Source: Solirubrobacteraceae bacterium
Lineage (GTDB): Bacteria; Actinomycetota; Thermoleophilia; Solirubrobacterales; Solirubrobacteraceae
Direction of reading: 5' to 3'
NCBI GenBank assembly: GCA_024711025.1
Contig: JANJTP010000053.1
Span: 1 to 51,480, forward strand
DNA: 51,480 bases
Part shown: positions 19,836 through 36,123 of the stretch, piece after piece
How positions within the stretch are numbered: the stretch's first letter is position 1
Layout of the letters: every line of letters starts with the position of its first letter
Program-made: the position numbers and the translations under genes
The notes under the pieces: generated by a model
Told to the model about the DNA's origin: nothing
The model's database searches: none
The model's input: only the letters and a program-made list of their open reading frames with translations

Positions 19836-20927
19836 TCAGAGCTTCAGCAGCCGCGTGGCCGCCGCCTTCCAGCTCGCGACGACGGCCATCCCCGGCGCCA
19901 GCTCGAGATCGCGGGCCGCAGGCGCGGTGACCTCGGCCGTCAGCGGCTGCGGGGCGGCGAGGCCGACCCGGACGCGGTTGCCGAGGTGCGTGACCGATGT
20001 GACCTCGACCGCCAGCCGGTTCTGCGCCGACCCGCCGCGTCCGTCGTCGCCGCGAGCCAGGGCGATCTCCCAGGGGTAGACGCTGGCGGCCACCGGGCCC
20101 GACCCCGGGTCGGTGCTGAGCAGCTCGCCCCCGCCGTCGATCACGACGTGCGTGAGGCCGTCGGCGCCCGGCGCCGCCATGCCGGTCAGCACGACGGCAC
20201 CGGTGAAGTCGGCGACGAAGGCCGACGCCGGCGAGGCGGCGAGATCGGCGGCCGTCCCGTGCTGGATCACGCGGCCGCCGTCGATCACGCCGATGTGATC
20301 GCCGAGCAGCGCGGCCTCGGTGAAGTCGTGCGTCACGAGCAGCGCCGGCACGCCGGTCTCGCGCAGCACGGACGCCAGCTCGCGCCCGGCGGCGGCCCGC
20401 GTGCGGGCGTCGAGCGCCGAGAGCGGCTCGTCGAGCAGCAGCGCGTGCGGCCGCGGCGCCAGCGCCCTCGCCAGCGCGACCCGCTGGCGCTCGCCGCCCG
20501 ACAGCGTCCGCGGGTGAGCGTCGGCGAGGTGCGCGACGCCGAACAGATCGAGCAGCTCGTGGGCGCGTCGGCGGCGCTCGGCGCGCGGCAGCTCGCGAAG
20601 CCCGTAGGCGACGTTGCGCCAGGCGCTCAGATGGCCGAAGAGCGCGTAGTCCTGGAAGACGTAGCCGCAGCGTCGGCGCTCGATCGGGACGTCGATCCGC
20701 CGCTCCGTGTCGAGCCACGTACGCTCGCCGCAGGCGACGTGCCCGTGCCGAGGTCGCACGAGGCCGGCGACGACCCGCAACACCGTCGTCTTCCCCGCCC
20801 CCGACGGTCCCGCGAGCACCAGGCAGCGGCCGGCCGGCGCCTCGAGCGCGACGTCGAGCTCGAAGCGCCCGAGGACGAGCGAGGCGTCAACGCGCAGCAC
20901 GCGCACCGCCCAGCCACGAGGAGCCAC
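19836..20927 (-). CDS. modC: Molybdate ABC transporter ATP-binding protein
   Basis: The 363-residue protein has an ABC ATPase domain with Walker A GPSGAGKTT, Q-loop FQDYALF, signature LSGGERQRVALARAL, Walker B ALLLDEPLSALD and the switch His in VTHDF. A C-terminal TOBE-like region (about 290-360, EVTSVTHLGNRVRVGL) matches molybdate importers. The frame starts at GTG 20927, overlapping modB by 41 bases. GTG 20906 or 20900 would trim an unconserved N-terminus and may be the real start. A sulfate or tungstate role is possible, but modB, modA and the TOBE regulator support molybdate. Confidence 0.87.
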   Translation of the reverse strand: MAPRGWAVRVLRVDASLVLGRFELDVALEAPAGRCLVLAGPSGAGKTTVLRVVAGLVRPRHGHVACGERTWLDTERRIDVPIERRRCGYVFQDYALFGHLSAWRNVAYGLRELPRAERRRRAHELLDLFGVAHLADAHPRTLSGGERQRVALARALAPRPHALLLDEPLSALDARTRAAAGRELASVLRETGVPALLVTHDFTEAALLGDHIGVIDGGRVIQHGTAADLAASPASAFVADFTGAVVLTGMAAPGADGLTHVVIDGGGELLSTDPGSGPVAASVYPWEIALARGDDGRGGSAQNRLAVEVTSVTHLGNRVRVGLAAPQPLTAEVTAPAARDLELAPGMAVVASWKAAATRLLKL

Positions 20928-21696
20928 TCAGCAGCCGGACCGCGAGCAGCAGCGCGGCCGACATCCCGACGAGCACCGCCGACAGCGCCAGCGCGCCGGT
21001 GAAGTCGGTCGAGAAGCGCTCGTAGATCGCGAGCGGCACCGTCTGCGTGATGCCGCGGAACGAGCCGGCGAACATGAGCGTCGCGCCGAACTCGCCGAGC
21101 GCCCGCCCCCATGCCAGCGCGAGGCCCGCGACCAGGCCGCCGCCGGCGCCCGGGATCGCGACCCGCAGGAACGTGCGAGCCTCGCCGGCGCCGAGCGTGC
21201 GCGAGGCGTCCAGCCACGAGCGGTCGACCGCCTCGAACGCCGCCTGCGCCTGGCGCACGTAGAAGGGGGCGGCGACGAACGTCAGAGCCACGACGACGCC
21301 GGCCGTCGTCAGCACGAGCTGCAGGCCCGCGTCCTCGATCAGCCCGCCGAGCAGCCCGCGCGGACCGAGCGCCGCCAGCAGGCCGATGCCCGCGACGGCG
21401 GGCGGCAGGACGAGCGGCAGCTCGATCACCGTCATGAGCGTCGATCGGCCGCGGAAGCGACGGGTCGCCAGCAGGTAGGCGGCCGGCGTTCCGACGAGCA
21501 CGATGACCGCCACGGCGATCGAGCTGCACAGCAGGCTCAGCCGCAGCGCCTCGACGGCGCCCTCGTCGCCGAGGCTGCGAACGAGGTCCAGCGGGCCGGC
21601 GTCGACGAAGATCGCCACGACCGGCAGAGCGAGGAACACGACCGTCAGCGCCAGCGCACCGACGAGCAGCGCCCGGAACCAGGCGGGGCCGCTCAC
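20887..21696 (-). CDS. modB: Molybdate ABC transporter permease
   Basis: The 269-residue membrane protein has about six helices and the cytoplasmic EAA loop LDASRTLGAGEARTFLRVAIP, followed by GLALAWGRALGEFGATLMFAG, as in ModB. It forms the membrane channel for oxyanion uptake with modC. The GTG start at 21696 overlaps the modA stop by 4 bases (GTGA), so the three genes form one operon in the order A-B-C. Confidence 0.9.
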   Translation of the reverse strand: MSGPAWFRALLVGALALTVVFLALPVVAIFVDAGPLDLVRSLGDEGAVEALRLSLLCSSIAVAVIVLVGTPAAYLLATRRFRGRSTLMTVIELPLVLPPAVAGIGLLAALGPRGLLGGLIEDAGLQLVLTTAGVVVALTFVAAPFYVRQAQAAFEAVDRSWLDASRTLGAGEARTFLRVAIPGAGGGLVAGLALAWGRALGEFGATLMFAGSFRGITQTVPLAIYERFSTDFTGALALSAVLVGMSAALLLAVRLLSGSSWLGGARAAR

Positions 21697-22526
21697 GACG
21701 GCGGCGGCGGCGGCTCAAAGCCGGCCGCCCGCAGCGCCTCCTGCCCGCCGCCCGAGACGAGCCCGTCGATGAACGCCTGGGCCTGCTCTGGCCGGCGCGT
21801 GCCGCGCACGACCGCGGCGCCGTAGGCCACGGCGGGCTGCAGCTCGGCGGGCAGATCGATCGCGACGAGCCGCCCGCCGCTCGCGCGCACGTCGCTGACG
21901 TAGACGAATCCTGCGTCCACGGCGCCCTGGGTCAGCTTGCCGACGATCCCCGCGACGTCCGGCTCCTGCGAGCGCACGTTGGCTAGGACACGCTCGCGCA
22001 GAGCGTTCGGCAGCCGTCCGAGAACGGTCCGCGTGTACGCGCCGATCGGGACGCCGGGGGCGCCGATCGCGATGTCGACGCCCGGGCGTGCGAGGTCCGC
22101 GAGCGCCCTGACGCGACCGGGAGCACCGCCGCTCTCGGAGGACGGCACCGCGAGCACGAGCCGGTTGCCTGCGAAGACGACGGGTCGCTCGACGAGCCCC
22201 TTCGCGTAGAGCTGCTCGGGGAGCTTCGTGTTCGCCGCGGCGAACACGTCGGGCCGCACCCCCTGCTCGATCTGGGCGGCGAGCTCGTCCGAGCCGGCGA
22301 ACGAGAACCGCACGTCCGCAGAGTCCAGCCGCTTGGCGTAGTCGGTGAACGCGCTCTTCAGCGATGACGCCGCCGAGACGACGAGCCGCGGCTTGGCTTC
22401 GGTCGCCCCGGTCGCGGCGCCACCGCCGCAGCCGGCGATCGCCACCAGGCACGAGATCGCCAGCGAGGCCACCGCCAGCCGCGAGCGCGTGCCAGGCGCG
22501 GATCGAACCGAGGTTCGGGACCGCAT
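21693..22526 (-). CDS. modA: Molybdate-binding lipoprotein
   Basis: The 277-residue extracytoplasmic binding protein has a lipoprotein signal (LAVASLAISCLVAIAGC, acylated Cys33). The mature protein starts its fold with LVVSAASSLKSAFTDY, the ModA oxyanion-binding strand-loop. Later come FSFAGSDELAAQIEQG and GAVDAGFVYVSDV. It captures molybdate (or tungstate) and hands it to modBC. ATG 22526 is used; ATG 22544 is an in-frame alternative. It lies 62 bases downstream of the HTH-TOBE regulator on the same strand. Confidence 0.88.
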   Translation of the reverse strand: MRSRTSVRSAPGTRSRLAVASLAISCLVAIAGCGGGAATGATEAKPRLVVSAASSLKSAFTDYAKRLDSADVRFSFAGSDELAAQIEQGVRPDVFAAANTKLPEQLYAKGLVERPVVFAGNRLVLAVPSSESGGAPGRVRALADLARPGVDIAIGAPGVPIGAYTRTVLGRLPNALRERVLANVRSQEPDVAGIVGKLTQGAVDAGFVYVSDVRASGGRLVAIDLPAELQPAVAYGAAVVRGTRRPEQAQAFIDGLVSGGGQEALRAAGFEPPPPPS

Positions 22527-22588
22527 GCCGAGGTGCCGCCCCATCCTGACCCGAGTGCGTACGGACGTGTCGCGGCGTGCCCGACCGG

Positions 22589-22987
22589 TCACGCCACGTC
22601 CCCCGTGCCCCGCTCGATCATCACCGATGTCGCCTTGACCGCCGCCGTCGCGCGCATGCCGGCCGTCAGCCCGAGCTCGTCGACCGCGTCGCGCGTGACC
22701 GCGGCCGTGATCCGGTGCGGGCCCGCCTCGATCTCGACGAGCGCCATGACACCGTCGACCTCGACCGACCGTACGATCCCGGGGAAGCGATTGCGCGCCG
22801 ACAGCCCGTCGCCCGGCCCCTGGCGCGGCGGCCGCGCGGTCAGCCGCTCGACCTCGGAGCGCGGGACACGCCGGCGGTTGCGCTCGTCGCGGGTCGTGCG
22901 CAGCTTCCCGTCGCGGTCCCAGCGGCGCAGCGTGTCGACGCTGACACCGACGGCGCGCGCGGCCTCTCCCAGCGGAAGATCGGTCAT
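22589..22987 (-). CDS. HTH-TOBE (molbindin) transcriptional regulator
   Basis: The 132-residue protein joins a MerR/excisionase-like helix-turn-helix (residues about 1-55; LPLGEAARAVGVSVDTLRRW, then RRVPRSEVERL) to a TOBE/Mop domain (about 68-130; RNRFPGIVRSVEVDGVMALV). TOBE domains bind molybdate, so this is probably the molybdate-responsive regulator of modABC, which follows on the same strand. It is smaller than E. coli ModE and differently built. ATG 22987 lies just after an AT-rich near-palindrome (22992-23008). Confidence 0.8.
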   Translation of the reverse strand: MTDLPLGEAARAVGVSVDTLRRWDRDGKLRTTRDERNRRRVPRSEVERLTARPPRQGPGDGLSARNRFPGIVRSVEVDGVMALVEIEAGPHRITAAVTRDAVDELGLTAGMRATAAVKATSVMIERGTGDVA

Positions 22988-22991
22988 GCCT

Positions 22992-23008
22992 GTGCACCAT
23001 ATAGGCAC
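22992..23008. promoter_or_regulatory. AT-rich imperfect palindrome upstream of mod regulator
   Basis: GTGC and GCAC (22992-22995, 23005-23008) flank CCATATAG-like sequence in the divergent 102-base interval between the regulator and the DUF1622 gene. On the minus strand it gives TATATG about 10 bases before the ATG at 22987, so it could be a -10 element of a leaderless transcript and/or an operator. Confidence 0.35.
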
Positions 23009-23089
23009 GACCGCCGACATGACGTCTCGTGCATGGGCATTTACAAGGATCGCGATCGCACGAGGCTGGGCGGCGTTACGTTCTCCCCG

Positions 23090-23458
23090 ATGACCTACGA
23101 GGAGACGATCTCCGACGTCGTGAAGGTCGTCGAGGCGTGCGGCGCGGGGATCATGATCCTCGGCGGCCTCGGCGCGTTCCTTGCCGCCGCTCCACGCGCG
23201 CTGCGAGCCGGGACCAGGTCCGGATCCTATGACGATCTCCGCCGCAACCTCAGCCGGGCGATCCTGCTCGGGCTGGAGGTGCTGATCGTCGCCGACATCG
23301 TGCGGACGATCGTCGTCGACACGACGCTCGAGAGCGTCGCGGTCCTCGGCATCATCGTCGTGATCCGGATCCTGCTCAGCTTCTCGCTCGAGGTCGAGAT
23401 GGACGGCGTCTGGCCCTGGCGTCGCCGCCGCCAGGCGCGCGAGGAGACGATCCCCTAG
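23090..23458 (+). CDS. DUF1622 family membrane protein
   Basis: The 122-residue protein has three likely membrane helices: about 15-35 (GAGIMILGGLGAFLAA), 56-76 (AILLGLEVLIVADIV) and 83-101 (VAVLGIIVVIRILLSFSL). The DLRRNLSRAILLGLEVLIVADI stretch, with charged residues before a helix, matches the DUF1622 pattern as I know it. Function is unknown. It is divergent from the mod regulator and convergent with nothing close. ATG 23090 gives the usual family length. Confidence 0.75.
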   Translation: MTYEETISDVVKVVEACGAGIMILGGLGAFLAAAPRALRAGTRSGSYDDLRRNLSRAILLGLEVLIVADIVRTIVVDTTLESVAVLGIIVVIRILLSFSLEVEMDGVWPWRRRRQAREETIP

Positions 23459-23607
23459 AGGGTCGGGCGGAGCACGACGGCGCCGGGGACGATGAGCGCC
23501 GGCTTCCAGGCGCTCCGGGCTGGATCGTCGGCTTCGCGATCAAGGCCTTTATCGCTGTACGCGAGCTTGCCGACGCGCCTCGACACGTTTGCGGCATCCT
23601 TGACGGC

Positions 23608-24237
23608 ATGCCGCGGCAGAACCGCGTTACGCCACTCGGCGACATCATCGCCGATCCGGCGCGGGGGCTCGTCTTCGGTAACCGGGGATGCCTGCACGAC
23701 GACGAAGGTCGGATCCGCCGACGCCACGCCGGCCGCGCGTGGATCGCGTGTCGGCTTGACTTCAAGGACCGCCGCCGTGCGCTGATGCAGCCGGGGCGAT
23801 ACACGGAGCTGTTCTTCCTGGACGACGCGACGGCGCTGGCCGCAGGACATCGGCCATGCGCGGAGTGCCGTCGCGAGGACTACCGCCGCTTCATCGCACT
23901 GTGGCCCGGAGGCGACTCGGAGCGCCCGTCCGCCGCTGCCGTCGACGCCCGGCTCCACGAAGAGCGGCGCACCGACGCCGGCACGCAGCACCATCACGAG
24001 CGCGCCCTCGACGACCTCCCCGACGGCGTGTTCGTCGTCCGCGGCGACGCACCGTGGCTCGTGCACGGTCGCGAGCTGCTGCGCTGGACACCGGCTGGAT
24101 ACACAGACGCCGTGTCCCGGCCTTCCGGCAGCCAGGCCGTCGTGATCACGCCCCCGTCGGTCGTCAGCGTGCTGGAACGGCGATGGCGCCCGACCCTCGT
24201 CTCGTTTCTTCACCCGTCTGCCGAGACCGACGGCTGA
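23608..24237 (+). CDS. Conserved cysteine protein with Ada-like zinc-site pattern
   Basis: The 209-residue protein has no assigned function that I know. It contains GNRGCLHDDEGRI, WIACRLDFK, and then TELFFLDDATALAAGHRPCAECRREDYRRF. The last segment resembles the AxxAGxRPCxxCRP half of the Ada-type zinc-binding domain. With the two earlier Cys residues (about 28 and 48), four Cys could form one metal site. No catalytic module or membrane segment is visible. ATG 23608 begins MPRQNRVTPLGDIIADPARG, typical of the family as I remember it. It may be DNA- or metal-related, but this is inference. Confidence 0.65.
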   Translation: MPRQNRVTPLGDIIADPARGLVFGNRGCLHDDEGRIRRRHAGRAWIACRLDFKDRRRALMQPGRYTELFFLDDATALAAGHRPCAECRREDYRRFIALWPGGDSERPSAAAVDARLHEERRTDAGTQHHHERALDDLPDGVFVVRGDAPWLVHGRELLRWTPAGYTDAVSRPSGSQAVVITPPSVVSVLERRWRPTLVSFLHPSAETDG

Positions 24238-24871
24238 TCGGCGCGCAAGGTGGCGCCGTCCCGTTCGGGTTGAATGGCGCCGGCCGATGCCGGGTCCGAC
24301 CGAGCGAGTCCGCTCGCAGCTTCGCCCCGCAGAATCCGACGCCTTGCGGGCTCTGCGGAGCGGTTCGCTGTGGTTCGCCCTACTGGGCGTATCGGGGCGA
24401 TCCCTTCAACTCCGACCTCCGACGCCTTGATTGCTGAGGTGCTAGATGCTGCCGTGCTCCCGAGTGTGCTGCAAGGCCGTCGGGCGTTCCGGCTGACGTG
24501 CTCCCCATAGGCAGGCCGAGAGTTCAACTCGAGTTGGCGAGGCCTTCAGCAGCAGGAACGTCTTCGCTCGGTACGCCCCCATCGAGGAGAACCGTGCGAC
24601 GCGGGCCGTTCGCGACATGCCGTCGGCAATGCCACGACGGCGGAAGACGTCACGTGCTGTCGCTTCCACGCGAAAGCGCTAGCGCCATAACGAACGCTAC
24701 GGCTTGGTGGGGTTCGGACCCCTTCGGCTCACGACGTTGGCTGCCACCGGACCGTCATTGGGGCGGCCGTCTCCACGGCTCGTCTGGGCGTCTTGTGCCC
24801 GCGCCCGTCCGCAGTTAGCGAGTGACCCGCGGTAGCCGGTCTTTCCGCAGTTGCCCAAGGACGGACTGCCG
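24238..24871. other. Gene-poor interval, 634 bases
   Basis: No convincing coding frame is seen between the convergent genes. A 7-base inverted repeat, CCGCAGA (24327-24333) / TCTGCGG (24352-24358), and a GCCC-TACT-GGGC mini-hairpin near 24377 are the only structures noticed. A T-arm-like GGGGTTCGGACCCC around 24714 lacks any tRNA body. The interval opens the accessory-looking region. Confidence 0.5.
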
Positions 24872-26971
24872 CTAGGAGCCGCGCTCGCCTTCGACGATGC
24901 TGCGGGCCGTATTCAGCACTTCGGCAAGTTCGGGCGACAGCGCCGCTTCATGGTCGACGTCTCGGAGACGCCGAACGGTCCACTCTTCGCCCAGCACCTC
25001 CTTGACCGCTGCCCACGCGAGCGGGCGGGGGCCATCGCCGAAGGATGGCTCCGTGTGAACGAGGAGGTATCGGGCGAACAGCCCGTCGTCCGAGAGCAGG
25101 CGATGGAACCGCGCGAGGTCTGTTTGCGCGTAGTGCTCGCTTGCTAGCCAGAGCATGCGACCTGCGTACGGGCTCCCCAGGATCGTCGCGGCAGGTGTCG
25201 CGGCAACAGCTTCGGCCAGCTGTCCGCGTATGGCGTCAAGAGCGTCTTCGCCGGCGATGGGGCTGCCGTCGTCGGTCTTGTACTTCCCAGCGTTGTAAAC
25301 GTCCAGCTTGGCGACTGGTTCGTCCTCCTCCGTCGCGCGCTCGAGGAGGTACCTCGCGCGTTGTTCCGCAGGGAGCCGAGATACGAGGTCGGCGACGAAC
25401 CACTCGATCTGCCGGAACGGATCATCGACGCGTGCCGGCTCAGACGGAACGCGACGGCGGCCCTCATGCGCGATGATGCGCGCGACGTGCGGGACATCTG
25501 CAAGAGCGATGTCCTTCACGTGGGCTCGCAACCGCTCGACCAGAGCTGGTAACTGTTCGTCCTCCCAGGTGCTGAGTTCCTGGATGAGAATCTCGGGAGC
25601 ATGCGTCGCGTCTAGCACGCGATGGACGGCCGCGAGCGTGAGCGTCTCCTCAGGTAGTACAGCCGTGAAGTAGGTCCAGAAGACCTCGGGGTCCGTGACG
25701 CGTCGACGGCGCTGCGCTTCGCGGTCGTCGGAACCGGCGGCGCCGCTCGCGAGGAACAGGCCTGACCTCGGGAACAGCAGGAGGAACGCGGCACGCGCGA
25801 CATCTGGAGCTTCGGACTCGACGACGACCTCCTCGAGACGGCGAGCAGCCGTTTCCTTCGGCTCGTCCATCAGCACTGCCGACCAGAAGTTGGCGGTCGG
25901 CAGGAGGAACTCAGCGAGTCCCGGCAACGCAGTATGCAGCCCTGGGAGGAAGGTCGTAAGTGCTGCAAGGGCCAGCTGGTCGACGACGTCGACCTCTTCT
26001 CCGTGAAGATGGAGGCTCAAACGCAGCGCGTTCCCATACCGCCGCACGTGCCTCGGAGTCGACACGAGAGGTTCGACGATCTTGGGGAAGACCTCACTCC
26101 ACCGGTCGGCGTCGAACCGGTCATCAGGAAGAGCCACGATCGCCTCCTGGATCTCTGCAAGGAGCATCCCGCTCAGTGCGGCCCTCGGAACCTCGGGGAG
26201 CCGGTGCTCGACCTGAACGATCTTCTCGAGGTACTCCTCACCCGAGACGCCCGGGCTCTTGAGGGCCGACACGACGGGGCGACGATCGTACGACAGCACG
26301 TAGGTCACTCCCGGAAGGTCCCCGACGAGCTTGACCATCCGCATCAGATCCTGGATCTCAGTTGCAGACTGCAGGCGGTCGACGTCATCGATGAGCACCA
26401 CGAGATGCGTGTCGAGGTCCCGCAGGGCGGCGGCGACGGCGGCGCGCTGAGCGGGGAGGCCGACCGGGGCAGTATCGGAGCGTTTCGCGGCTTCCTGCAT
26501 GACGTCCGCCCCCGTCCCGAAGATGCCACCGACGCCGGGTAGGGACCGGAGCGTGCCTAGTGCGGCGCCGTATCGACGCAGGCGGTCCGACGCGGTCGTC
26601 GCGTCCGACCTGCCGAGGACGTCCGGGAGCTGGTCGGCCAAGCTGACGAAGAAGTAGGCGGTCAGCTGCTCGCTGCCGCTGAACAGCCACGGGTTGAACT
26701 CGACGACGACGGCTCTCCTGCCGCTCTGCGCGTCGCTTGAAGCTTCGATCTCCTCGCGAACCATGCGAAGCACGCTCGTCTTGCCGCTGCCCCAGGGACC
26801 GGCCACTGAGACGACGAGGCCGTCGGCGGGCCGGCTCGCCAGGATCTGATGAGCGATTAGTCGGGCGAACGACCGCCGGCCGAGTCGGTCGCCCGCTCGG
26901 CCGACGGGTTCGTCACCGCTGATCGGCGGCTGACCGCCCGTGGGTTGCTCGTGCTCGTTGCAATCGACCAT
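24872..26971 (-). CDS. KAP-family P-loop NTPase
   Basis: The 699-residue protein begins with a P-loop NTPase: Walker A GPWGSGKT (about residues 58-65), the KAP-typical FNPWLF (92-97), and Walker B LVVLIDDVDR (190-199). An arginine-rich sensor region near STPRHVRRYGNALR follows. The rest (about 330-699) is helical with no recognised domain. No clear membrane helices interrupt the NTPase core, unlike many KAP proteins. ATG 26971 is preferred over TTG 26977. It stands alone, divergent from the peptide cluster at 27647. KAP NTPases occur in some phage-defence contexts, so a defence role is possible but not shown. Confidence 0.85.
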   Translation of the reverse strand: MVDCNEHEQPTGGQPPISGDEPVGRAGDRLGRRSFARLIAHQILASRPADGLVVSVAGPWGSGKTSVLRMVREEIEASSDAQSGRRAVVVEFNPWLFSGSEQLTAYFFVSLADQLPDVLGRSDATTASDRLRRYGAALGTLRSLPGVGGIFGTGADVMQEAAKRSDTAPVGLPAQRAAVAAALRDLDTHLVVLIDDVDRLQSATEIQDLMRMVKLVGDLPGVTYVLSYDRRPVVSALKSPGVSGEEYLEKIVQVEHRLPEVPRAALSGMLLAEIQEAIVALPDDRFDADRWSEVFPKIVEPLVSTPRHVRRYGNALRLSLHLHGEEVDVVDQLALAALTTFLPGLHTALPGLAEFLLPTANFWSAVLMDEPKETAARRLEEVVVESEAPDVARAAFLLLFPRSGLFLASGAAGSDDREAQRRRRVTDPEVFWTYFTAVLPEETLTLAAVHRVLDATHAPEILIQELSTWEDEQLPALVERLRAHVKDIALADVPHVARIIAHEGRRRVPSEPARVDDPFRQIEWFVADLVSRLPAEQRARYLLERATEEDEPVAKLDVYNAGKYKTDDGSPIAGEDALDAIRGQLAEAVAATPAATILGSPYAGRMLWLASEHYAQTDLARFHRLLSDDGLFARYLLVHTEPSFGDGPRPLAWAAVKEVLGEEWTVRRLRDVDHEAALSPELAEVLNTARSIVEGERGS

Positions 26972-27646
26972 CGCCAAGCCGACGTTCGCAGGTCATCCCG
27001 ACGGCCTCGCTCGGTCAGGAGCGCTGGTGCGCTGCCGTGCCAGCGCTGAACACCCATCGGATTAGGAACAACCGCCTTCCCGCGAGCGCAGTAGCGCAGT
27101 GGCGCTTCAAGCGCATGGCGGAAGCCTACGCAGGGGGCCGAACGGCCCACACGGGCTGCGCCGGTCAAGCCCCTTCGGAACGGAGGGCGACGCGACACTT
27201 CCTGTTGGACGATCTCTTCGGCAACCGTCTGCGCTAGAGGTGCTCGGGGCACCGTCATCGCGACTTAGAGTCGCTACGGCGTGCTTCAGCGTTGATCCCT
27301 ACCGCATACGCGGCGCTCACGTGTTGGCGGAGAGATGATTCGGCTCGTCGTTCGATGCTGGTTCGCTTCGTCTGCCGCCGCGCGATCGGCGACCCGACGA
27401 ACAGTGTCGAGGGCGTGACTCTCCAGCGCGCGCACAAGTGAGCAACGACGCGACGTCGTTGCGCTGAGCGAGCAGACCGGAGTCCAATGCATGAGCTGTG
27501 TCGGCCGACGATTAACCGTTTGAGCTTCGTCATTACCGGCGCGTCGCTGAGCGCGCGGAGCTGGCTCGACCTTCGACGCGACGTAGATTGCGCCGTCCGG
27601 ATGGCGAGTGGGAGTGATGATTCATAGACGCCCGTACGATGCGCCA
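26972..27646. other. Intergenic interval upstream of the peptide cluster, 675 bases
   Basis: This divergent interval separates the KAP NTPase start and the first precursor gene, and must hold promoters for both. I see no convincing protein gene. A small perfect hairpin GCGACT-TAG-AGTCGC is at 27260-27274. I could not identify a confident -35/-10 pair. Confidence 0.5.
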
Positions 27647-27808
27647 ATGGCAAGTGATCACGCCGCAAGAACCCTGTACGACGAGCTTTCGGAGGTAGCG
27701 CCACTTGGCCTTGGCGCAGGCGAAACGATCGGAACGCGCACGAAGGAGACGCTCGACAATGACGAGGAAGCAATCGCATTCGAGCACGACGGCAGCAACC
27801 ACGGCTGA
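27647..27808 (+). CDS. Graspetide precursor peptide 1
   Basis: The 53-residue peptide has the leader motif RTLYDELSEVAP (LYDEL about residues 10-14) and a C-terminal core GETIGTRTKETLDNDEE. The core is rich in Thr/Lys donors and Glu/Asp acceptors, as needed for ester or amide cross-links by an ATP-grasp ligase. It shares LY(D/S)xL and GETxxT...ETxD with the next two small genes. A tail AIAFEHDGSNHG follows the core. ATG 27647 has no clear Shine-Dalgarno; ATG 27617 would add 10 residues and has a weak one. Its last 50 bases overlap precursor 2 in another frame. Confidence 0.78.
   Translation: MASDHAARTLYDELSEVAPLGLGAGETIGTRTKETLDNDEEAIAFEHDGSNHG
27743..27748 (+). promoter_or_regulatory. Ribosome binding site of precursor 2 inside precursor 1 core codons
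   Basis: AAGGAG lies 10 bases before ATG 27759. The same bases encode the Lys-Glu of the TKET core motif of precursor 1, so peptide sequence and translation signal are shared. Confidence 0.75.
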
Positions 27809-27941
27809 GCCGATCTCGCTCTACGACGTTCTTGCGGCCGCGCCGTCCCCAGTCACGCCGCGCGGCGAGACGAACCTGACGAAGAAGACCGAAACGGTCG
27901 ACGAAACGGAGAGCCTGCATGACGACCCGTCCCTCACGTGA
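27759..27941 (+). CDS. Graspetide precursor peptide 2
   Basis: The 60-residue peptide has a Ser/Thr-rich N-terminus, the leader motif ISLYDVLAAAPSP (LYDVL about 21-25), and a core GETNLTKKTETVDETES with a tail LHDDPSLT. It aligns with precursors 1 and 3 at G-E-T-x-x-T and E-T-x-D. It overlaps precursor 1 by 50 bases and precursor 3 by 23 bases, each in a different frame. It has the best ribosome binding site of the three (AAGGAG). Expected product: a cross-linked peptide after modification by the ligase at 28076. Cross-link pattern is not readable. Confidence 0.8.
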   Translation: MTRKQSHSSTTAATTAEPISLYDVLAAAPSPVTPRGETNLTKKTETVDETESLHDDPSLT

Positions 27942-28101
27942 CCACAGCGACGCCGAGAACTCGCTGTACAGCCTGCTCGGCGAGCCGGCGCCGCCGCAGG
28001 CGGCCGCCGGAGAGACGTCGCTGACCGCGACGAAGGAGACGGTCGACGCGGACACCGAGGACGTGTCGGACGACGATGTCATCCGCCTTCGGGGTGCGTA
28101 A
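27919..28101 (+). CDS. Graspetide precursor peptide 3
   Basis: The 60-residue peptide has the leader motif NSLYSLLGEPAPP (LYSLL about 16-20) and a core GETSLTATKETVDADTED, extended by an acidic run VSDDDVIRLRGA. ATG 27919 is preceded by GGAG (27908-27911) 7 bases upstream, inside the end of precursor 2. Its own last 26 bases overlap the ligase gene. The shared motifs in three frames argue that these are three true paralogous precursors and not one frameshifted gene. Confidence 0.8.
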   Translation: MTTRPSRDHSDAENSLYSLLGEPAPPQAAAGETSLTATKETVDADTEDVSDDDVIRLRGA

Positions 28102-29011
28102 CCGTCCTCTCATAATCGGCAGCGCGGACGACGAGCACGTTCAAGCCGTCCTTGCCGCGATCGGGGACGGCGCGAACCCGCTCCTCGTAGACACCGAGCG
28201 TCTCGAGGACACACCATTCACGCTGACCGCAGACCGCTTCGAGCTTGGCGACGAGGCGATTGAGCTCGGCCGATCTCGCGCGTGGTTGAGACGTCTGAGC
28301 CCGCCACGCTGGCGGATGGGCACCGTGAGCGGGTCCCGCGATGCTGCCGTCCGCGCGTCCTTCGTCTCTGTCATCGTCGCGCTCGGTTCACATCCCGGCG
28401 TTGACTGGCTCACGCCGTACCCCGGCATCATCGCCGCCGAGAACAAGCTCCGTCAGTACGCGCACGCCGATCGCTTGGGCATCCGCACGCCGCGCACCAT
28501 CGTGACGAGCGACGCCGCATCGGTACCGCGGGACCTGGGGAACAAGCTGGTTGCCAAACCATTCGGACCCGGTCACTTCGTCGCAGACGACGGCGAGGCG
28601 CGTGTGGTCTGGGCCCAGACGCTCGACCGCGACGACGAACGCCTGCGCACACTTGCTGCAGCTCCGTTCCTCCTGCAGGAACGCGTTGAGGCACGCGAGC
28701 ATCTGCGCGTCGTCACCTGCAAGGGGAAGAGCTGGGTCGGCGTGCTTGACGCGGAGGGGTTGCCGCTCGACTGGCGCCGCAATGACGACGCCCACCACGC
28801 CTTCGCGTCGGGAGCCGACGAGCACGTGCAACGTGCCGCCGAGCGGCTGGCGCGCGACCTCGGCGTCGGCTACTCGAGCCAGGACTGGATTCGCGACGGC
28901 CGCGACGCCGTCTTCATCGACCTCAACCCCGCCGGCCAGTGGCTTTTCCTCCCCGCCGCCGTGAGGGACGCCGTCACCGCCGCGGTCGCGGCGCACCTCC
29001 TCGGGAGTTAA
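28076..29011 (+). CDS. ATP-grasp ligase of graspetide (microviridin-like) type
   Basis: The 311-residue protein has an N-terminal pre-ATP-grasp region (PLIIGSADDEHVQAVL) and then an ATP-grasp core. The core shows NKLRQYAHADRLGIRTPRT (123-141), ATP-binding Lys161 in LVAKPFG, LLQERVEAREHLRVV (199-213), and a metal-binding end IDLNPAGQWLF (281-291). NPxGQW is the hallmark of ligases that make omega-ester or omega-amide bonds in graspetides; the usual preceding Glu is Asp282 here. It activates Asp/Glu side chains by phosphorylation for attack by Ser/Thr/Lys. ATG 28076 overlaps precursor 3; GTG 28094 is an alternative start. Confidence 0.87.
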   Translation: MSSAFGVRNRPLIIGSADDEHVQAVLAAIGDGANPLLVDTERLEDTPFTLTADRFELGDEAIELGRSRAWLRRLSPPRWRMGTVSGSRDAAVRASFVSVIVALGSHPGVDWLTPYPGIIAAENKLRQYAHADRLGIRTPRTIVTSDAASVPRDLGNKLVAKPFGPGHFVADDGEARVVWAQTLDRDDERLRTLAAAPFLLQERVEAREHLRVVTCKGKSWVGVLDAEGLPLDWRRNDDAHHAFASGADEHVQRAAERLARDLGVGYSSQDWIRDGRDAVFIDLNPAGQWLFLPAAVRDAVTAAVAAHLLGS

Positions 29012-29021
29012 GAACGCTGCC

Positions 29022-29603
29022 ATGTCGTCGCGCACCAAAGCCTTCAAGCGCGGACAGCGCATTTATCTCGAGCACGTCCTCGGACTGATCGCGCCCGGCA
29101 GTGCCGTGCCGACGTTCCCGGCCGACCAGCTCAAGCCTCAGTCGCTCGACGCCTGGACCAACGACGACCTCGGTCACATGATCGAAGAGGGCCGCCGTCA
29201 GTCGGATCGTCAACAGGCCGACCTCGAGCGGATCAGATCGCGCGCCCAGTGGCTCTTCACCGTCGCTGCCGGCGCACTTGCTGCGCTCGGCGCCGGACTC
29301 GTCTCAAGCAAGCCATCTGTGCCGCTGATCGCGCTCTGGCTCGTCGGCATGCTGCTTCTCGTTTACGGCATCGGAGGTGCCGCAGCGATCCTGACGGTCC
29401 GCGCAGACTTCGCGATGATCCATACGGCGGTCCTGAGCGGCGTGTCGCCGCCGGTCGATCGCGAACTCGCGAAGAGTTACTCGCGCATGATGAGCGACGG
29501 TGAGAATACGGTTGCCACCCGCTTGACCGTCTTCCGGCAGGCCGTCGTCTTCTCCCTGTCCGGCGGCTACCTCGGACTGCTCGCTGCAGTGCTCGCCGGC
29601 TGA
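29022..29603 (+). CDS. Three-helix membrane protein of the graspetide operon
   Basis: I do not recognise a named family. The 193-residue protein has a soluble N-terminus (1-75) with a charged coiled-like stretch EEGRRQSDRQQADLERIRSR. Three membrane helices follow at about 76-94, 100-125 and 173-192, with a cytoplasmic-looking loop between the last two. It starts 10 bases after the ligase stop, with GGGAG upstream, so it is co-transcribed. It is not an ABC exporter or a protease. It could help export, anchoring or self-protection; none of this is shown by the sequence. Confidence 0.7.
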   Translation: MSSRTKAFKRGQRIYLEHVLGLIAPGSAVPTFPADQLKPQSLDAWTNDDLGHMIEEGRRQSDRQQADLERIRSRAQWLFTVAAGALAALGAGLVSSKPSVPLIALWLVGMLLLVYGIGGAAAILTVRADFAMIHTAVLSGVSPPVDRELAKSYSRMMSDGENTVATRLTVFRQAVVFSLSGGYLGLLAAVLAG

Positions 29604-29636
29604 CCGGTACCGGAGCCTGTCGAATGCCGCCGGTCA
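29601..29636 (+). terminator. Possible weak terminator hairpin of the graspetide operon
   Basis: TGACCGG (29601-29607) is the exact reverse complement of CCGGTCA (29630-29636), and a self-complementary CCGGTACCGG lies in the left arm. It starts at the stop codon of the membrane-protein gene. There is no U-run. Confidence 0.3.
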
Positions 29637-30031
29637 ACGACACGTCATCGGCTCGTCCGCGAGCCAGAGCGGCTGACCGCTGCTGCTTTGCGCGAGAAGC
29701 GGCACGTTCCTCCGGCGTTCGGAGCTACGCCGGGTGCGCGAACGCTCGCGCCGCCCTTTGCACCGAGCTGGAGACCCTGGCGTTGTCCGCCGCGCGAAAC
29801 ACCTCGATCGGGGCGCGCCGGGTTTGTGCCGGACCGACAACTCGACGCCGTTCGGGCCTCGTAAGGCTCGACGAATCACACTCAGTGGCTCACGGCCACG
29901 GCCACGGCCACGGCCACCTCTGCGAGGAGCTCATCGGCGTATCAGCACTCTCGCGAGATGGCCGTCCGCGACCTCACCTCGTCCACCGGACGGGCTCGGA
30001 AGGACCTGTGCTCGATGCGGGCGTCGTCGAA
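29604..30031. other. Gene-poor interval, 428 bases, with a hexamer repeat
   Basis: This convergent interval lies between the membrane protein and coxG. Apart from the hairpin at its start, I see only (GGCCAC)x4 at 29894-29917. No convincing coding frame was found. Confidence 0.5.
29894..29917. repeat. (GGCCAC)4 microsatellite
   Basis: Four perfect tandem copies of GGCCAC lie in non-coding sequence downstream of coxG. The array may vary in copy number between strains. Confidence 0.85.
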
Positions 30032-30706
30032 CTACGAGGTCGGCGTGCCAGCACGCCGCCGGACGTGGCGGCTGATCCACGCGCGGAGCGCAGCGAGGCG
30101 CCCGCGGACGACCGCGCCGACGACGGTGGAGAGCTTGACGTGCGACGCCGCGGGAGCGGGTTCCGCGACTTGAGGTACGTCGGGCGCCGGAGCGGTCTCC
30201 TGCGCCGCTGTCACGGCCGCGGGGTCCGGCGAGGTCGCCGGCTCCTCGCCATCGGTCGGACCGGCGAGCAGACGCTCCATGTTCTGCGCCATCTCACCGA
30301 TCATCCGCGTCGAGACGTCCTTCATGATGCCGTGGCCCATCTGAGCCACTCGGCCCGTGATCTTCAACTCCGTCGAAACCGCCACCGCCGACGAGCCTCC
30401 ATCACGTTCGGTCACGGCCATCCGCAGAGTGCCCTGCGCCGATCCCTGCCCCTTGGCCTCGGTGCCGCTCGCCAACATGACTGCTGTCCGCGCCGCGGGA
30501 TCCTGGTCGGTGATCGCGACGGTGCCGGCGTACTGCATCTTCATCGGCCCCAACTTCATCTTCATCCGTCCGTCGTAGGCGCCGTCGTCGCGACGCCCGA
30601 GGACCTCGGTCCCGGGCAGGCAGGTTGCAACACGCTCGACATCGACCATGAGCGCGTACACCACATCCGGCGCCGCATCGACATTGAACTCGTTCTCGAT
30701 CAGCAT
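30032..30706 (-). CDS. coxG: CoxG-family SRPBCC protein
   Basis: The 224-residue protein has a SRPBCC (START-like) domain at about 1-145, beginning MLIENEFNVDAAPDVVYALM and including CLPGTEVLGRRDDGAYDGRM, VAQMGHGIMKDVSTRMIGEM. This matches CO-dehydrogenase subunit G. An Ala/Pro-rich linker (about 150-190) leads to a short hydrophobic and basic tail (KLSTVVGAVVRGRLAALRAW), which may anchor it to the membrane. CoxG helps maturation or membrane attachment of Mo-hydroxylases. It lies at the end of the hyuB-hyuA-aminotransferase run and near the hydroxylase genes. Confidence 0.82.
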   Translation of the reverse strand: MLIENEFNVDAAPDVVYALMVDVERVATCLPGTEVLGRRDDGAYDGRMKMKLGPMKMQYAGTVAITDQDPAARTAVMLASGTEAKGQGSAQGTLRMAVTERDGGSSAVAVSTELKITGRVAQMGHGIMKDVSTRMIGEMAQNMERLLAGPTDGEEPATSPDPAAVTAAQETAPAPDVPQVAEPAPAASHVKLSTVVGAVVRGRLAALRAWISRHVRRRAGTPTS

Positions 30707-30887
30707 GTGGTCCTCTCTGATGCGCCGAAGGCCGACACGTCGACGATGGAGACGGTCCGATGACCCATGTCACGGGAGTGTGCCGTTCCTCCCTGGCGCC
30801 GCCTCTGCGCAGTCGGTACAGCAGACAGCTCGCGCTGTGCGGCTCGTGAGCATCCCGCGCCACGAGCGTACGGATCGGCCGGCTTTC

Positions 30888-32114
30888 TCATGACCGGTCC
30901 TCCATGGTCTCGAAGCCGGCCTGCAGCCGGTCGGCGACGTCTTCGATCACGCGCTCGTCCATCGGCGTCGACAGACAGACGACGCCGCTCGCGGACAGCA
31001 GCACCCCGTGGTCGTAGGCCGCCCACCACAACGCTCGCCGCCGTTCGGCGCTGTCGTTCTCGGCCGGTGCGATGCGGAACACGGACCCGACGCCGCGGAC
31101 GTGCCAGCCGAAGGACCGCGCCACCTCGTCCAGGCGATGACGGGCAAATCGACCGAGTCCGTTCAGCCGCTCGACCGCGCCGTGGTCGTAGAACTCGAGC
31201 GCCACCTTCCCTGCCTGCATGCTCACCGGGTTGGCGGTGAAGGTTCCGCCGTGTTGCAGCCCGTCCGGCAGCGCCGGATCGAGCAGCCGCATCGACTTCT
31301 CCGTCCCGAGCACAGCGCCGATTGGAAAGCCGCCGCCGATGACCTTGCCGACGACGAGCAGATCGGGTGCCAGGCCGTACCCGTCGTGCGCATAGCCGGC
31401 GATCGCGTGTCTGAACGAGATGATCTCGTCGACAATGACGAATGCGCCATGGGCCCGAGCGAGGTCGTCCACCGCCCGGACGAACGCCTCGTCCAGCGGG
31501 ACGCACCCACCCAAAGCAGGAGCGAGATCGAGCAGGACCGCCGCTATGTCGTCGCCGAAGGCGTCGAACGCAGCGTGTACCGCGTCGACGTCACCGGGCG
31601 CCACGGTCACCACGTCGGCGAGCGTGCCCTCGGGCACTCCCCGCACGGCGCCGGGCGCGGGGAGCACAGGATCTGCAGTCCCGTGGTAGGCGGGTGAGAG
31701 CATCACGATGCGGTTCCGTGCGGTCGACGCCCGGGCGATCCGGACCGCCAACATCACGGCCTCCGTCCCCGAGTTCGCATAGCGCACCTGCTCGACCCAA
31801 GGCACGCGCGCGACGAGCTCTTCGGCGTGGTCGAGCTCTGCCGCGGTGGGCATGCCGAAGCAGGCGCCGTCCCGCGCCGCGGCGACCGCGGCCTCAGTGA
31901 CGTGGGGATGCGCGTGGCCGTGAACGAGCACCGTGAAGTTGTTGTTCAGGTCGATGAGCTCGCGCCCGCCCTCATCGACCACCCGGAACCCGGAGCCGCG
32001 GACCAGCCGAGGTGAGCGCTCACCGACGTAGAACGTCCCGCGGCCGTAGCCACCCGGCAGATGGAGTTCGCGGGGATCCCGCGGTGAGAGCACCGGCGAC
32101 TGCGACGAGCTCAT
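30888..32114 (-). CDS. Class III aminotransferase, glutamate-1-semialdehyde aminomutase-like
   Basis: The 408-residue PLP enzyme shows YANSGTEAVMLAVRIAR (cofactor phosphate region), AFVIVDEIISFRH (pyridine-binding Asp), the Schiff-base Lys in VVGKVIGGGFPIGAVLG, and GGTFTANPVSMQAG. It resembles HemL. Its place between hyuA and coxG, far from haem genes, suggests a catabolic aminotransferase acting on an amino-acid-like product of the ring-opening enzymes. ATG 32114 overlaps the hyuA stop by 4 bases (ATGA). Substrate is not readable from the sequence. Confidence 0.82.
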   Translation of the reverse strand: MSSSQSPVLSPRDPRELHLPGGYGRGTFYVGERSPRLVRGSGFRVVDEGGRELIDLNNNFTVLVHGHAHPHVTEAAVAAARDGACFGMPTAAELDHAEELVARVPWVEQVRYANSGTEAVMLAVRIARASTARNRIVMLSPAYHGTADPVLPAPGAVRGVPEGTLADVVTVAPGDVDAVHAAFDAFGDDIAAVLLDLAPALGGCVPLDEAFVRAVDDLARAHGAFVIVDEIISFRHAIAGYAHDGYGLAPDLLVVGKVIGGGFPIGAVLGTEKSMRLLDPALPDGLQHGGTFTANPVSMQAGKVALEFYDHGAVERLNGLGRFARHRLDEVARSFGWHVRGVGSVFRIAPAENDSAERRRALWWAAYDHGVLLSASGVVCLSTPMDERVIEDVADRLQAGFETMEDRS

Positions 32115-34228
32115 GCCGACGACGCCGCAGACTGGAGGGAATCCGGCGCGCGCTGCTCCGCAGCGGCCCCGATCTCGACGACCAGGCTGCCACTGGTGAG
32201 CCGCTCCGCGCTATTGCCCGGGTCGATGACCACCGTGGTGAACGGCGATTCGATCACCGCCGGCCCGACCACCGGCTTGCCCGGCGCCAGCCCGTCGAGG
32301 TGGACGACGCGGGCATCGACACGACCAAGCGTCGGGAAGTACATCCGCCGATTCGGCAGCTCGTCGTGAAGTGCTGCGTCGCGGTGAAGCCGCGGCGCGT
32401 CCTCGGAGCGCAGCCGACAGGAGACACGCGCGCGGAGGGCCAGCAGCTCGACGTGGGCAGTCGGCTGGTCGACACCGAAGACCTCGCGATGCGTGGCGTG
32501 GAACGCCTGGCGCAGGTCTTCAACATCCCGCTCGTCGCGGAAGCGTCCGGCCGGCAGCGGGATCTCGAGCTCCCACACCTGATGCGGGTAGCGCGCCTCG
32601 GCGGAGTACACCACGCTGGATTCGGCCGCCGTCGTGCCCGACTCGGCGATGAACGCGTTGCAGCGCGCGCCGAGCTCGGCCAGCAGATCGTTGGCCTTCT
32701 CGAACTCGAACGACTCGGTTGTGGTGACGAAGGTGACTGCGTGGTCGGCCGTGAGATCGGACATCAGCCCACCCGCGGCACTGAGTGCCGCCCCGACCTC
32801 GGGGATCACGAGCACCCGGCAACCCAGATGCGTCGCGATCGCCACCGAGTTGAGGCCCGCAGCCCCGCCGCCTCCGACGAGCACGGCACCGGCAGGATCC
32901 ACCCCCTGGTTGACCGTGATCTCCTTGATGGCCATCACCATCTGGTCCGTGGCGAGCGCGAGCACGCCCGCGGCCGCGGCGTCGACGTCGAGCTCGAGCG
33001 GGGCGGCGATGTGCTGGGCGATCGCCCGACGCGCAGCCTGCACGTCCAGCGCCATGCGTCCACCGAGGAAGTACTCGGGATCCAGATGCCCGAGGACCAG
33101 GCTCGCGTCGGTGACGGTTGGTTGCACGCCTCCGCGGCCGTAGGCCACCGGTCCCGGCACGGCGCCGGCGCTCTGCGGCCCTACGTGCAGCAGGCCACCG
33201 TCGTCGACCCAGGCAATGCTGCCGCCACCGGCGCCGATGCTCTTGATGTCCACTGACGGGAACCCCGTCATGTGACCGAAGTACGGGTCGCCGAGCCACG
33301 TCTCGCGTGTGGTCGGGATGGTGCCCCGACGGACGAGGCTGACGTCATACGTCGTGCCGCCTGTGTCGGCGATGATGGCGGTGTCGGTCTGGCCGTCGAG
33401 GTGAGCGAAGAAGCGGCCCGCCACCGGAGCCATCGCCGGGCCCGAGTTGATGCTGTGGATTGGTTGCGCGGCGACGCTGGCGACGTCCTTGACACCGGCG
33501 CCGGACGTGAGCATGAGCACGCGACCGGGGAACCCCGCCTCCCGCAGCCGGCGCTCGAGTCCATTGAGGTACTCGGTCATCACCGGCTTGAGTGACGCGT
33601 CGATGACGGTCGACGAGGCGCGACGGTACTCCCGCAAACTCGGGTTGAGCTCGTGCGACAGGGTGTACGGCATACCCGGCAGCTCCTGCTCGATGAGCTC
33701 TCCGACTCGGAGTTCGTGCGCAGGATTCATCGTGGACCAGAGCAGGCACACACCGATCGCTTCCGTTCCGGCATGACCGACGCGCTGCAGCACCTCTCGC
33801 GTCCGCTCCTCGTCGAGCGGGCGAACGATCTCGCCCTCCGAACCGATGCGCTCGGGGACCTCGAAAGTGAGGGCCCGAGGCACGTACGGCTCCGGGTATG
33901 CACGGTCGTGATCGAACGGGCGCGTACGTCCGCCTTCACGGAACACCAGCACGTCAGGGTGACCATCAGTGGTGAGGAACGCCGTCTTCGCCGTCGCGCC
34001 CGTGATGATCGCGTTGACGGCCCGCGTGGTCCCGTGCACGAGGATCTCGCCATGCGCGAGGAAGTCCTGCAGCTCGACACCGCGGCTCTCGGCCGCCACT
34101 TGCAGAACATCGAGGATGCCCCGCACCGGGTCGTCGGGCGTGGTGGGGGATTTGTGAACGTGGACGCCGGAGTCGTCCTCGATCACCAGGTCCGTGAACG
34201 TTCCGCCCGTATCGATTGCCAGCCGCAT
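32111..34228 (-). CDS. hyuA: Hydantoinase/oxoprolinase subunit A
   Basis: The 705-residue subunit is of the HyuA family (N-methylhydantoinase, 5-oxoprolinase, acetone carboxylase). It has the N-terminal actin-like ATP-binding motif LAIDTGGTFTDLVIE, HGTTRAVNAI, a second phosphate motif IIADTGGTTYDVSLVRRG, and VGGGGAAGLNSVAIA. The family couples ATP hydrolysis to opening of lactam-like rings or to carboxylation. The partner subunit hyuB is upstream on the same strand, after 101 bases. The set with aminotransferase, Mo-hydroxylase and PucR regulator suggests heterocycle breakdown. Confidence 0.9.
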   Translation of the reverse strand: MRLAIDTGGTFTDLVIEDDSGVHVHKSPTTPDDPVRGILDVLQVAAESRGVELQDFLAHGEILVHGTTRAVNAIITGATAKTAFLTTDGHPDVLVFREGGRTRPFDHDRAYPEPYVPRALTFEVPERIGSEGEIVRPLDEERTREVLQRVGHAGTEAIGVCLLWSTMNPAHELRVGELIEQELPGMPYTLSHELNPSLREYRRASSTVIDASLKPVMTEYLNGLERRLREAGFPGRVLMLTSGAGVKDVASVAAQPIHSINSGPAMAPVAGRFFAHLDGQTDTAIIADTGGTTYDVSLVRRGTIPTTRETWLGDPYFGHMTGFPSVDIKSIGAGGGSIAWVDDGGLLHVGPQSAGAVPGPVAYGRGGVQPTVTDASLVLGHLDPEYFLGGRMALDVQAARRAIAQHIAAPLELDVDAAAAGVLALATDQMVMAIKEITVNQGVDPAGAVLVGGGGAAGLNSVAIATHLGCRVLVIPEVGAALSAAGGLMSDLTADHAVTFVTTTESFEFEKANDLLAELGARCNAFIAESGTTAAESSVVYSAEARYPHQVWELEIPLPAGRFRDERDVEDLRQAFHATHREVFGVDQPTAHVELLALRARVSCRLRSEDAPRLHRDAALHDELPNRRMYFPTLGRVDARVVHLDGLAPGKPVVGPAVIESPFTTVVIDPGNSAERLTSGSLVVEIGAAAEQRAPDSLQSAASSA

Positions 34229-34329
34229 CGGACGGTTATATCCCCGGCGCCTGGACGGCGGCCATCGTATGGTCGCTCAGTTCTGCGAGCACGGTCATAC
34301 CGATGTCAGGTGCTATGACGGCTGAACCG

Positions 34330-36123
34330 TCAGGCCGTCCGACCGGCGGCTGCCAGGAGGCGACGGCTCTGGGCCGTCGCTGCCTCGTCGACCTCATGGT
34401 CATCGTCAATGACGACGCCGTAGACGGTCTCCGCACGTTCGCGGCTGACGTACCCCTCGCGCACGTCGCGCAGCACCAAGGTGACATCGCGCTCGTGCGG
34501 CGGGCCGTATCCGCCCCCGCCGCTGGAGTAGGACACGATGCTCTCGCCCGGCGCAAGCACCACGACGGAGGGCGATATGACCGGTTCGGTCGAGCCGTCA
34601 CGGAGCCGCTTGTACTGGTGCGACACCTGGGCCCCCAGGCCTCCGCGGGCGCCGAGTGCGGGGCTCTCCGTGCTCTCGGCCGTGCAGACGAGCTCAATCG
34701 AGGTCCCGACCGGTCCGTACTCGACGTAGTTCGACAACGCCCCACGCAGACGTCCCGGGCCCTCCGTGTCGGGCACCAGGCGATCCTGGTCGATGCGGAT
34801 GGGGTGCAACAGCTCGTCCATCTCAGCGCTGTCGCGCATCATCATCCCCGCCGCCCCGCCGACCTGGAGGAGCCAGCCGTCAGCGTATGGGCCGGCGGCG
34901 CCGCCCGTGGCGCCGATGACCGGCAGGTTGACGAACGGCTCCCCTCCGCGGCGGGGATCCCGACCGGAGATGATCGAGTCCGACGCGGCGAACATCCCGC
35001 CGGCTTCGGCCATCCCCAGGCCCTCGCCGAGCTCCGCGAAGGCGATCTGAACCGCCCCCGTCAGGCGGGTCGCGATCCCGGTCGTGGCCATCGAGCAGCT
35101 CGCGGGGTGGCGCGGGATGCCGGCGACGCAGTTCTCGCGCAGCAGGATCTGCAGCCTGCGGAAGCTCCCGCCGTTGATCGGGATGTCGCCGGGCAGGCTG
35201 TTGAGCGCGGCGAAGCGGACCGCAGCAGTGGCGGTTGCCTCGGTGAGGTTGATGCCGCAGGGAACGCAGTCGGGGTTGTCGCGGCAGTCGACCTCGATGC
35301 GGCCGTCGTCCGCATCGATCGCAACGGTGGCGCTGATCGTGAGGCCCTGTTCGACGCCCGTAAGTGCCAGAGCGTCGTAGCGCGTGCTGGCGGTGGCCGT
35401 CCCGGCGGGCAGCTGGCGAATGGCGGTCGCCATCCGGCCCTCGCTGTAATCGAGCCACTCGCTCGCGTAGGTCTGCAGCGCGTCCCAGCCGAGCTCGCGG
35501 CCCAGGCCGAGCAGCTCACGCTCGGCCGTACGCACCGCGCCGAGCATCGCCAGGAAGTCCCCGTGCCAGAGCTCGGGCACGCGGAGACGCAGCCGGCACA
35601 TCCGCTGCACGTCCTCCAGGTGCTGGTAGTCGGACTGCACCTTCACCCCGGCGAAGAGGAGCGACCCTTCCTCGTAGACGTCGCGCGCGAGTGGCTGGCA
35701 CGTCGTGGGCAGCGAGTTGCCCGAATCGGCGACGTGAGCCTTCACGCAGACCCAGAACCGGAGCTCACCGGCGTCGTCGACCACCGGCGCGAACACGCTG
35801 TGATCACCGCTGTGCGAGTTGCCGTGGTACGGCGAGTTGTGCAGGAAGGCGTCGCCGGCCTTGATGACGGGGTGCCACTCTCTCAGCCAGGGTGTCACGA
35901 GCTCGGGTCCGGACAACGTCATGATCGGCAGGCTCTCCGCACACGCGAGCATCTCGTCCTCCGGCGTGACGATGCACGCGATGACGTCGCGCGCCGTGTT
36001 CAGGATGCCCGAGCGGCCTGTCCGATACATCGTGTTGAGCATCCCGCGGACGATGCCCTCCATCCGGTTCGTGAGCACCGCCAGTCGGACGGGGTCGCTC
36101 GGCGTAGGCGTGACGGTCTTCAT
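34330..36123 (-). CDS. hyuB: Hydantoinase/oxoprolinase subunit B
   Basis: The 597-residue HyuB-family protein starts SDPVRLAVLTNRMEGIVRGM, then SGILNTARDVIACIVTPEDEML, FLHNSPYHGNSHSGDHSVFAP, and ends with SYSSGGGGYGPPHERD, all typical of the family. It works with HyuA in ATP-dependent ring opening. ATG 36123 was chosen because residues upstream are unconserved. It is the first gene of the minus-strand unit hyuB-hyuA-aminotransferase-coxG and is divergent from the Mo-hydroxylase large subunit, with a 186-base shared upstream region. Confidence 0.9.
   Translation of the reverse strand: MKTVTPTPSDPVRLAVLTNRMEGIVRGMLNTMYRTGRSGILNTARDVIACIVTPEDEMLACAESLPIMTLSGPELVTPWLREWHPVIKAGDAFLHNSPYHGNSHSGDHSVFAPVVDDAGELRFWVCVKAHVADSGNSLPTTCQPLARDVYEEGSLLFAGVKVQSDYQHLEDVQRMCRLRLRVPELWHGDFLAMLGAVRTAERELLGLGRELGWDALQTYASEWLDYSEGRMATAIRQLPAGTATASTRYDALALTGVEQGLTISATVAIDADDGRIEVDCRDNPDCVPCGINLTEATATAAVRFAALNSLPGDIPINGGSFRRLQILLRENCVAGIPRHPASCSMATTGIATRLTGAVQIAFAELGEGLGMAEAGGMFAASDSIISGRDPRRGGEPFVNLPVIGATGGAAGPYADGWLLQVGGAAGMMMRDSAEMDELLHPIRIDQDRLVPDTEGPGRLRGALSNYVEYGPVGTSIELVCTAESTESPALGARGGLGAQVSHQYKRLRDGSTEPVISPSVVVLAPGESIVSYSSGGGGYGPPHERDVTLVLRDVREGYVSRERAETVYGVVIDDDHEVDEAATAQSRRLLAAAGRTA

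Follow-up and report, generated by a model that had tools for sequence, protein, structure and literature searches.

A five-gene operon for probable graspetide biosynthesis, with three overlapping precursor genes, in a Solirubrobacteraceae bacterium

Results

Organisation of the locus

The window analysed here is a stretch of 51,480 nucleotides (contig JANJTP010000053.1) from a Solirubrobacteraceae bacterium. Three tiny consecutive genes for precursor peptides (P1, P2 and P3) are followed in it by a gene for an ATP-grasp ligase, as described in an initial annotation made from the sequence, and in addition each gene was found to overlap its successor, by 50 nt (P1/P2), 23 nt (P2/P3) and 26 nt (P3/ligase). 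A gene for a membrane protein, which falls inside the range of the initial annotation and was not mentioned there, begins 10 nt past the ligase stop codon. Given the overlaps through the ligase and this 10-nt gap, the five genes look like one operon (Table 1). Shine-Dalgarno-like sites are present ahead of P1, P2 and P3, and the ligase has an alternative start, GTG 28094. At third codon positions, the GC fraction reaches 0.80 in P2, 0.87 in P3, 0.82 in the ligase gene and 0.80 in the membrane protein gene, and only 0.64 in P1, whose coding signal by this measure is weak.

Table 1. Genes and nested start signals of the operon (positions in the window)
Feature	Position	Strand	Description
Precursor P1	27617..27808	+	63 aa; leader LYDEL, core GETIGTRTKETLDND
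Shine-Dalgarno of P2 (AAGGAG) and out-of-frame P2 ATG	27743..27761	+	Within P1 core codons K-E-T-L-D-N
Precursor P2	27759..27941	+	60 aa; leader LYDVL, core GETNLTKKTETVDET; start codon within P1 core codons
Precursor P3	27919..28101	+	60 aa; leader LYSLL, core GETSLTATKETVDAD
ATP-grasp graspetide synthetase (macrocyclase)	28076..29011	+	311 aa from ATG 28076; assigned by profile, PDB sequence, predicted fold and clade
Membrane protein	29022..29603	+	193 aa; three hydrophobic helices; W45 and EEGRRQ.D.Q...RAQ stretch conserved

The flanking genes are unrelated to the operon: one flank codes for a KAP-type NTPase, a solute-binding protein and an ABC transporter ATPase, the other for CoxG, an aminotransferase, a hydantoinase and a molybdopterin oxidase. 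The gene of the KAP-family P-loop NTPase (24872-26977) sits immediately upstream of the operon and runs against it, on the minus strand. Base composition over the operon is unremarkable. No Rfam match was found in 20000-36000, and the window holds no tRNA that could mark an island edge. The operon contains neither a protease gene nor a known exporter gene, and no C39 peptidase was found in the genome, which is 97% complete.

Relatives of the operon

Protein and profile searches yielded 16 further distinct loci (L002-L010, L012-L014, L038, L039, L043 and L044; L011 duplicates L004 and is not counted separately). Their hosts are two genomes from the family to which the window itself belongs, Nocardioidaceae, Acidimicrobiia, unassigned MAGs, one MAG labelled Terriglobia and one Streptomyces plasmid. 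The order of precursor or precursors, ligase and the same membrane protein is kept in 15 of these 16 loci. The operon is rare: it occurs in 3 of 399 genomes from the window's class, 5 of 246 from the Pimelobacter family and 3 of 345 from the class that includes L005; no relative of it was found in viral contigs.

The ligase branches with graspetide synthetases

Both ligase motifs reported at the outset, Lys161 in VAKPFG and the sequence IDLNPAGQWLF, are present, and the residues invariant in the ligase family include K161, D270, D282, N284, P285, G287, Q288 and W289. Among NCBIfam profiles, TIGR04187 (1.5e-29), MvdC (8.7e-25), MvdD (3.8e-15) and grasp-with-SPASM were matched, all well below their cut-offs; with 103 bits for TIGR04187 against a curated cut-off of 350, the protein stays outside the TIGR04187/TgmB subfamily. 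Its sequence relatives in the PDB are AMdnB (7m4s, 5.4e-17), MdnB, MdnC, CdnC and PsnB, to which a profile of 16 ligases added PruB, AMdnB again being best (1.2e-33).

The structure predicted for the ligase (pLDDT 88.7) gave a similar picture. MdnC (5ig9) came first (Foldseek E 6.1e-21, Z 24.5), and MdnC, AMdnB, CdnC, PruB, MdnB and PsnB all stood above RimK, with E values starting at 6e-21 versus 6e-13 and Z of 22.5-24.5 versus 21.9 and below. In the predicted model, the gap to RimK is clear by Foldseek and modest by Z. Clustering with RimK or D-Ala ligases had been named beforehand as the finding that would speak against a graspetide assignment. This comparison has now been made: identity as a RimK or D-Ala ligase ranked below the graspetide synthetases every time, and the assignment was not overturned.

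In the tree, all window-type ligases form one clade (support 100/99) with a long stem, separate from all the characterised ligases that the tree comprised, among them MdnB/C, MvdC/D, TgmB, CdnC and PsnB. No sequence of TgnB, the thuringinin ligase, was found in the plasmid or phage searches. The clade is small and is unnamed in the libraries searched.

Precursors and their cores

The leader motif LY(D/S)xL, read from the DNA by the initial annotation, was found in all three precursors. The proposed core GETxxTxxxETxDxxxE stood in part: GETxxTxxxETxD is shared by P1, P2 and P3, and the final E (position 17) occurs only in P1 and P3. The shared part arose in 1 (P1), 2 (P2) and 0 (P3) of 200,000 shuffles of each peptide. 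Its DNA form has three matches in the 3.14 Mb genome, exactly P1, P2 and P3, with none on the other strand and none in the reversed whole-genome control.

The matches lie at 27719, 27864 and 28009, a spacing of exactly 145 bp which places the three cores in three reading frames. At L014, successive cores have their Glu codons exactly 142 bp apart, again in three reading frames. Such regular spacing in both loci points to tandem duplication. P3 and B3 of L014 are clear orthologues (score 161, at most 100 for other pairings); the best match of P1 is B1 (score 101), and P2 and B2 match one way only.

Short precursors lie just upstream of the ligase in 17 of 17 loci, and an LY or LF leader motif is common to them. 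Their number varies: three separate precursors at the window and at L014, two at L012, two or three in Nocardioidaceae and one at L013, while L044 has one precursor with two cores. In a marine Acidimicrobiia-type subclade, a single precursor carries the cores in tandem, two or three in number; L043, with two precursors, is the exception. Across 22 single cores, T6 is kept in 21, D15 in 20 and T3 in 16; E10, T11 and D13 are found in 22 of 22, an invariance partly built in, since the cores were collected by searching for ET.[DE]. Of the tandem cores, 18 of 19 begin with GTxxT.

The start of P2 is nested in the core of P1

The P1 codons AAG GAG ACG CTC GAC AAT GAC (K-E-T-L-D-N-D) hold both start signals of P2. 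The same nested arrangement is found at L014 (reverse strand, reverse-complement positions 1152-1170), and in both loci the P2-type start follows the Glu codon's first base by 13 nt; the two ligases, from two species, are 56% identical. Five Nocardioidaceae cores have D-N-D but lack the nested start, their Asn being encoded by AAC and not AAT. Dual coding of this kind, in which a core motif also contains the signals that start the following precursor, is unusual; it was seen in the window and in one relative.

The membrane protein

The membrane protein belongs to an unnamed family. In 16 of 17 loci, the gene that directly follows the ligase codes for a homologue of it, the Streptomyces plasmid being the one without; the copy at L004 looks truncated. 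The conserved charged stretch precedes the first of the three hydrophobic helices. Sequence searches identified no Pfam, PADLOC or PDB relative, nor did Foldseek and VIA-align for PDB folds, where only weak helical-bundle matches came up. The best Pfam hint, 8xMP (E 0.016, 2 of 12 members), was not believed. Thuringinin loci carry a specific uncharacterised membrane protein (cluster 18), for which peptide transport has been suggested (Makarova et al., PMC8939145).

Two plasmids show a comparable gene order. On the Pseudomonas aeruginosa RW109 plasmid (L023:1425-3411), a four-repeat acidic precursor is followed by a graspetide-type ligase annotated rimK and by a membrane protein, and this is possibly a separate graspetide locus. 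Its gene order is that of the operon in the window, and its membrane protein has a W...EEARR.D.EQ stretch at the corresponding position; its core, LLTKTxxxxEADDD, differs. A comparison of the two membrane proteins was suggestive of kinship but fell short of significance (hhalign probability 12.6, p 0.0023). The Rhizobium ruizarguesonis symbiotic plasmid (L022:1438-3361) has a small ORF, a RimK-like ligase and a membrane protein in the same order; no relation was found between this membrane protein and the window type.

Discussion

A proposed route from precursor to product

We conclude that the locus is very probably a self-contained graspetide operon of five genes: one ATP-grasp ligase, three precursors and a dedicated membrane protein. 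The genes themselves, their conserved motifs and linkage, and the homology and predicted fold of the ligase support this. Assignment to the graspetide class, made initially from the motifs, is borne out by the position of the ligase in the graspetide synthetase branch (profile, PDB, tree and fold) and by the pairing of precursor and ligase in 17 loci, with an adjoining precursor that has a leader motif and Thr donors ahead of Asp/Glu acceptors.

In the established graspetide mechanism, as outlined in PMC13097080, which also covers linkage types, the ligase uses phosphorylation to activate a carboxylate, which is then attacked by a donor side chain. Applied to the operon, the LYxxL part of the leader, ahead of a predicted boundary with the core, would dock three different precursors onto one ligase. 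The latter would phosphorylate the core carboxylates E10, D13 and D15, and the upstream Thr hydroxyls T3, T6 and perhaps T11 would join the activated carboxylates to give omega-ester rings. The register of T3, T6 (and T11) relative to E10, D13 and D15 is fixed and suits two esters in each core, the most likely number, or possibly three; repeats of thuringinin and plesiocin are reported to contain two esters each (PMC12291112). The leader would then be cut off by a protease encoded elsewhere in the genome. Most likely, the dedicated membrane protein would export the peptides, protect the producer or anchor the complex of ligase and precursor. By analogy with the graspetides of tested activity, which are protease inhibitors (PMC8939145), the products may have this activity too.

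Group membership and other readings

The graspetide class itself is already known, and the initial annotation suggested that the operon may represent a new group within it. It noted correctly that the core departs from the microviridin and plesiocin patterns. Neither the TxKxPSD core nor the PFFARFL leader of microviridin (group 1) is present in P1-P3 or in the relatives' precursors, and the ligase lies outside the MdnB/MdnC (MvdC/MvdD) clades. The plesiocin (group 2) core, TTxxxxEE, is likewise absent from P1-P3. The thuringinin core motif, which the initial annotation did not consider, is TxxTxxxExxDxD, and the core TxxTxxxETxDxD would fit it: P1, P3 and 13 other cores match strictly, and P2 has T for the last D. 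Novelty at the group level is not established. If the thuringinin motif is right as given, the core is thuringinin-like, and the "new group" weakens to a clade unplaced in any group here.

The operon may belong to one of the groups already on record, the thuringinin type (group 3) or another, and be new only in its host, a reading to which we give a little less than an even chance. Beside the core motif, the specific membrane protein of thuringinin loci (PMC8939145) speaks for it, as do the tandem cores that most Acidimicrobiia-type relatives carry in one precursor, like thuringinin. On the other hand, in a tree with PsnB, MdnB/C, TgmB and CdnC the ligases separate on a long stem as a clade of their own, the cores have an extra conserved Thr after the Glu, and the hosts are actinobacterial. 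We consider it rather unlikely that the operon stands for a distinct graspetide group, mainly of actinobacteria, which would need the membrane protein encoded in nearly every member as a membrane-bound partner for biosynthesis or export and would close a third ring through the extra conserved Thr.

Readings other than side-chain stapling were also weighed. A RimK/LysX-like enzyme could add amino acids to an acidic peptide; such enzymes share the ATP-grasp fold (RimK Z 21.9), the peptides have acidic C-terminal tails, and two members of the ligase family match rimK_fam weakly. Yet graspetide synthetases come first in every sequence and fold ranking, and the Thr donors conserved in fixed register with the acids, the leader motif and NPAGQW all point away from such an enzyme, which makes this reading highly improbable. 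Only marginally better placed is the idea that the operon serves defence or conflict, with the membrane protein as effector and the modified peptides as its inhibitor or signal. Its patchy occurrence, in 3 of 399 genomes from the class, the adjoining KAP-type NTPase gene and the charged helical segment of the small membrane protein would suit it, but there was no PADLOC match, the operon at L014 has no KAP gene alongside, and the pairing of precursor and ligase fits biosynthesis.

As a graspetide operon, the locus brings in a ligase clade whose cores are short and regular (13 residues), borne on separate overlapping genes or in tandem in one precursor. The clade should be useful for learning how graspetide synthetases recognise their leaders and select which donor is paired with which acceptor, and the near-constant membrane protein partner makes export or tolerance of the peptides by such clusters directly testable.

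Comparison with known systems

The ligase finds its best PDB matches, by sequence and by fold, among the microviridin/marinostatin enzymes (MdnB, MdnC; MvdC, MvdD), but the window has neither the core nor the leader of that type, one ligase instead of two, and a separate clade. TgmB / SAV_5884-type (TIGR04187) actinobacterial ligases provide its best NCBIfam match; in contrast to them, the window has no methyltransferase or TgmA-type precursor, and again a clade of its own. Plesiocin (PsnA2/PsnB, PDB 7drm-7drp) has the same ligase fold (Z 24.2) and a single ligase, but differs in its core, and PsnB falls outside the window clade. On the motif given above, the spacing of the core would be shared with thuringinin (group 3, Bacillus thuringiensis; TgnA/TgnB). 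Both have a single ligase and an uncharacterised membrane protein in the loci (PMC8939145) and, if the proposed rings form, would have in common the two esters reported for each thuringinin repeat (PMC12291112). Thuringinin has one precursor with three repeats, whereas the window has three separate precursors, with an extra conserved Thr after the Glu and a host in the Actinobacteria.
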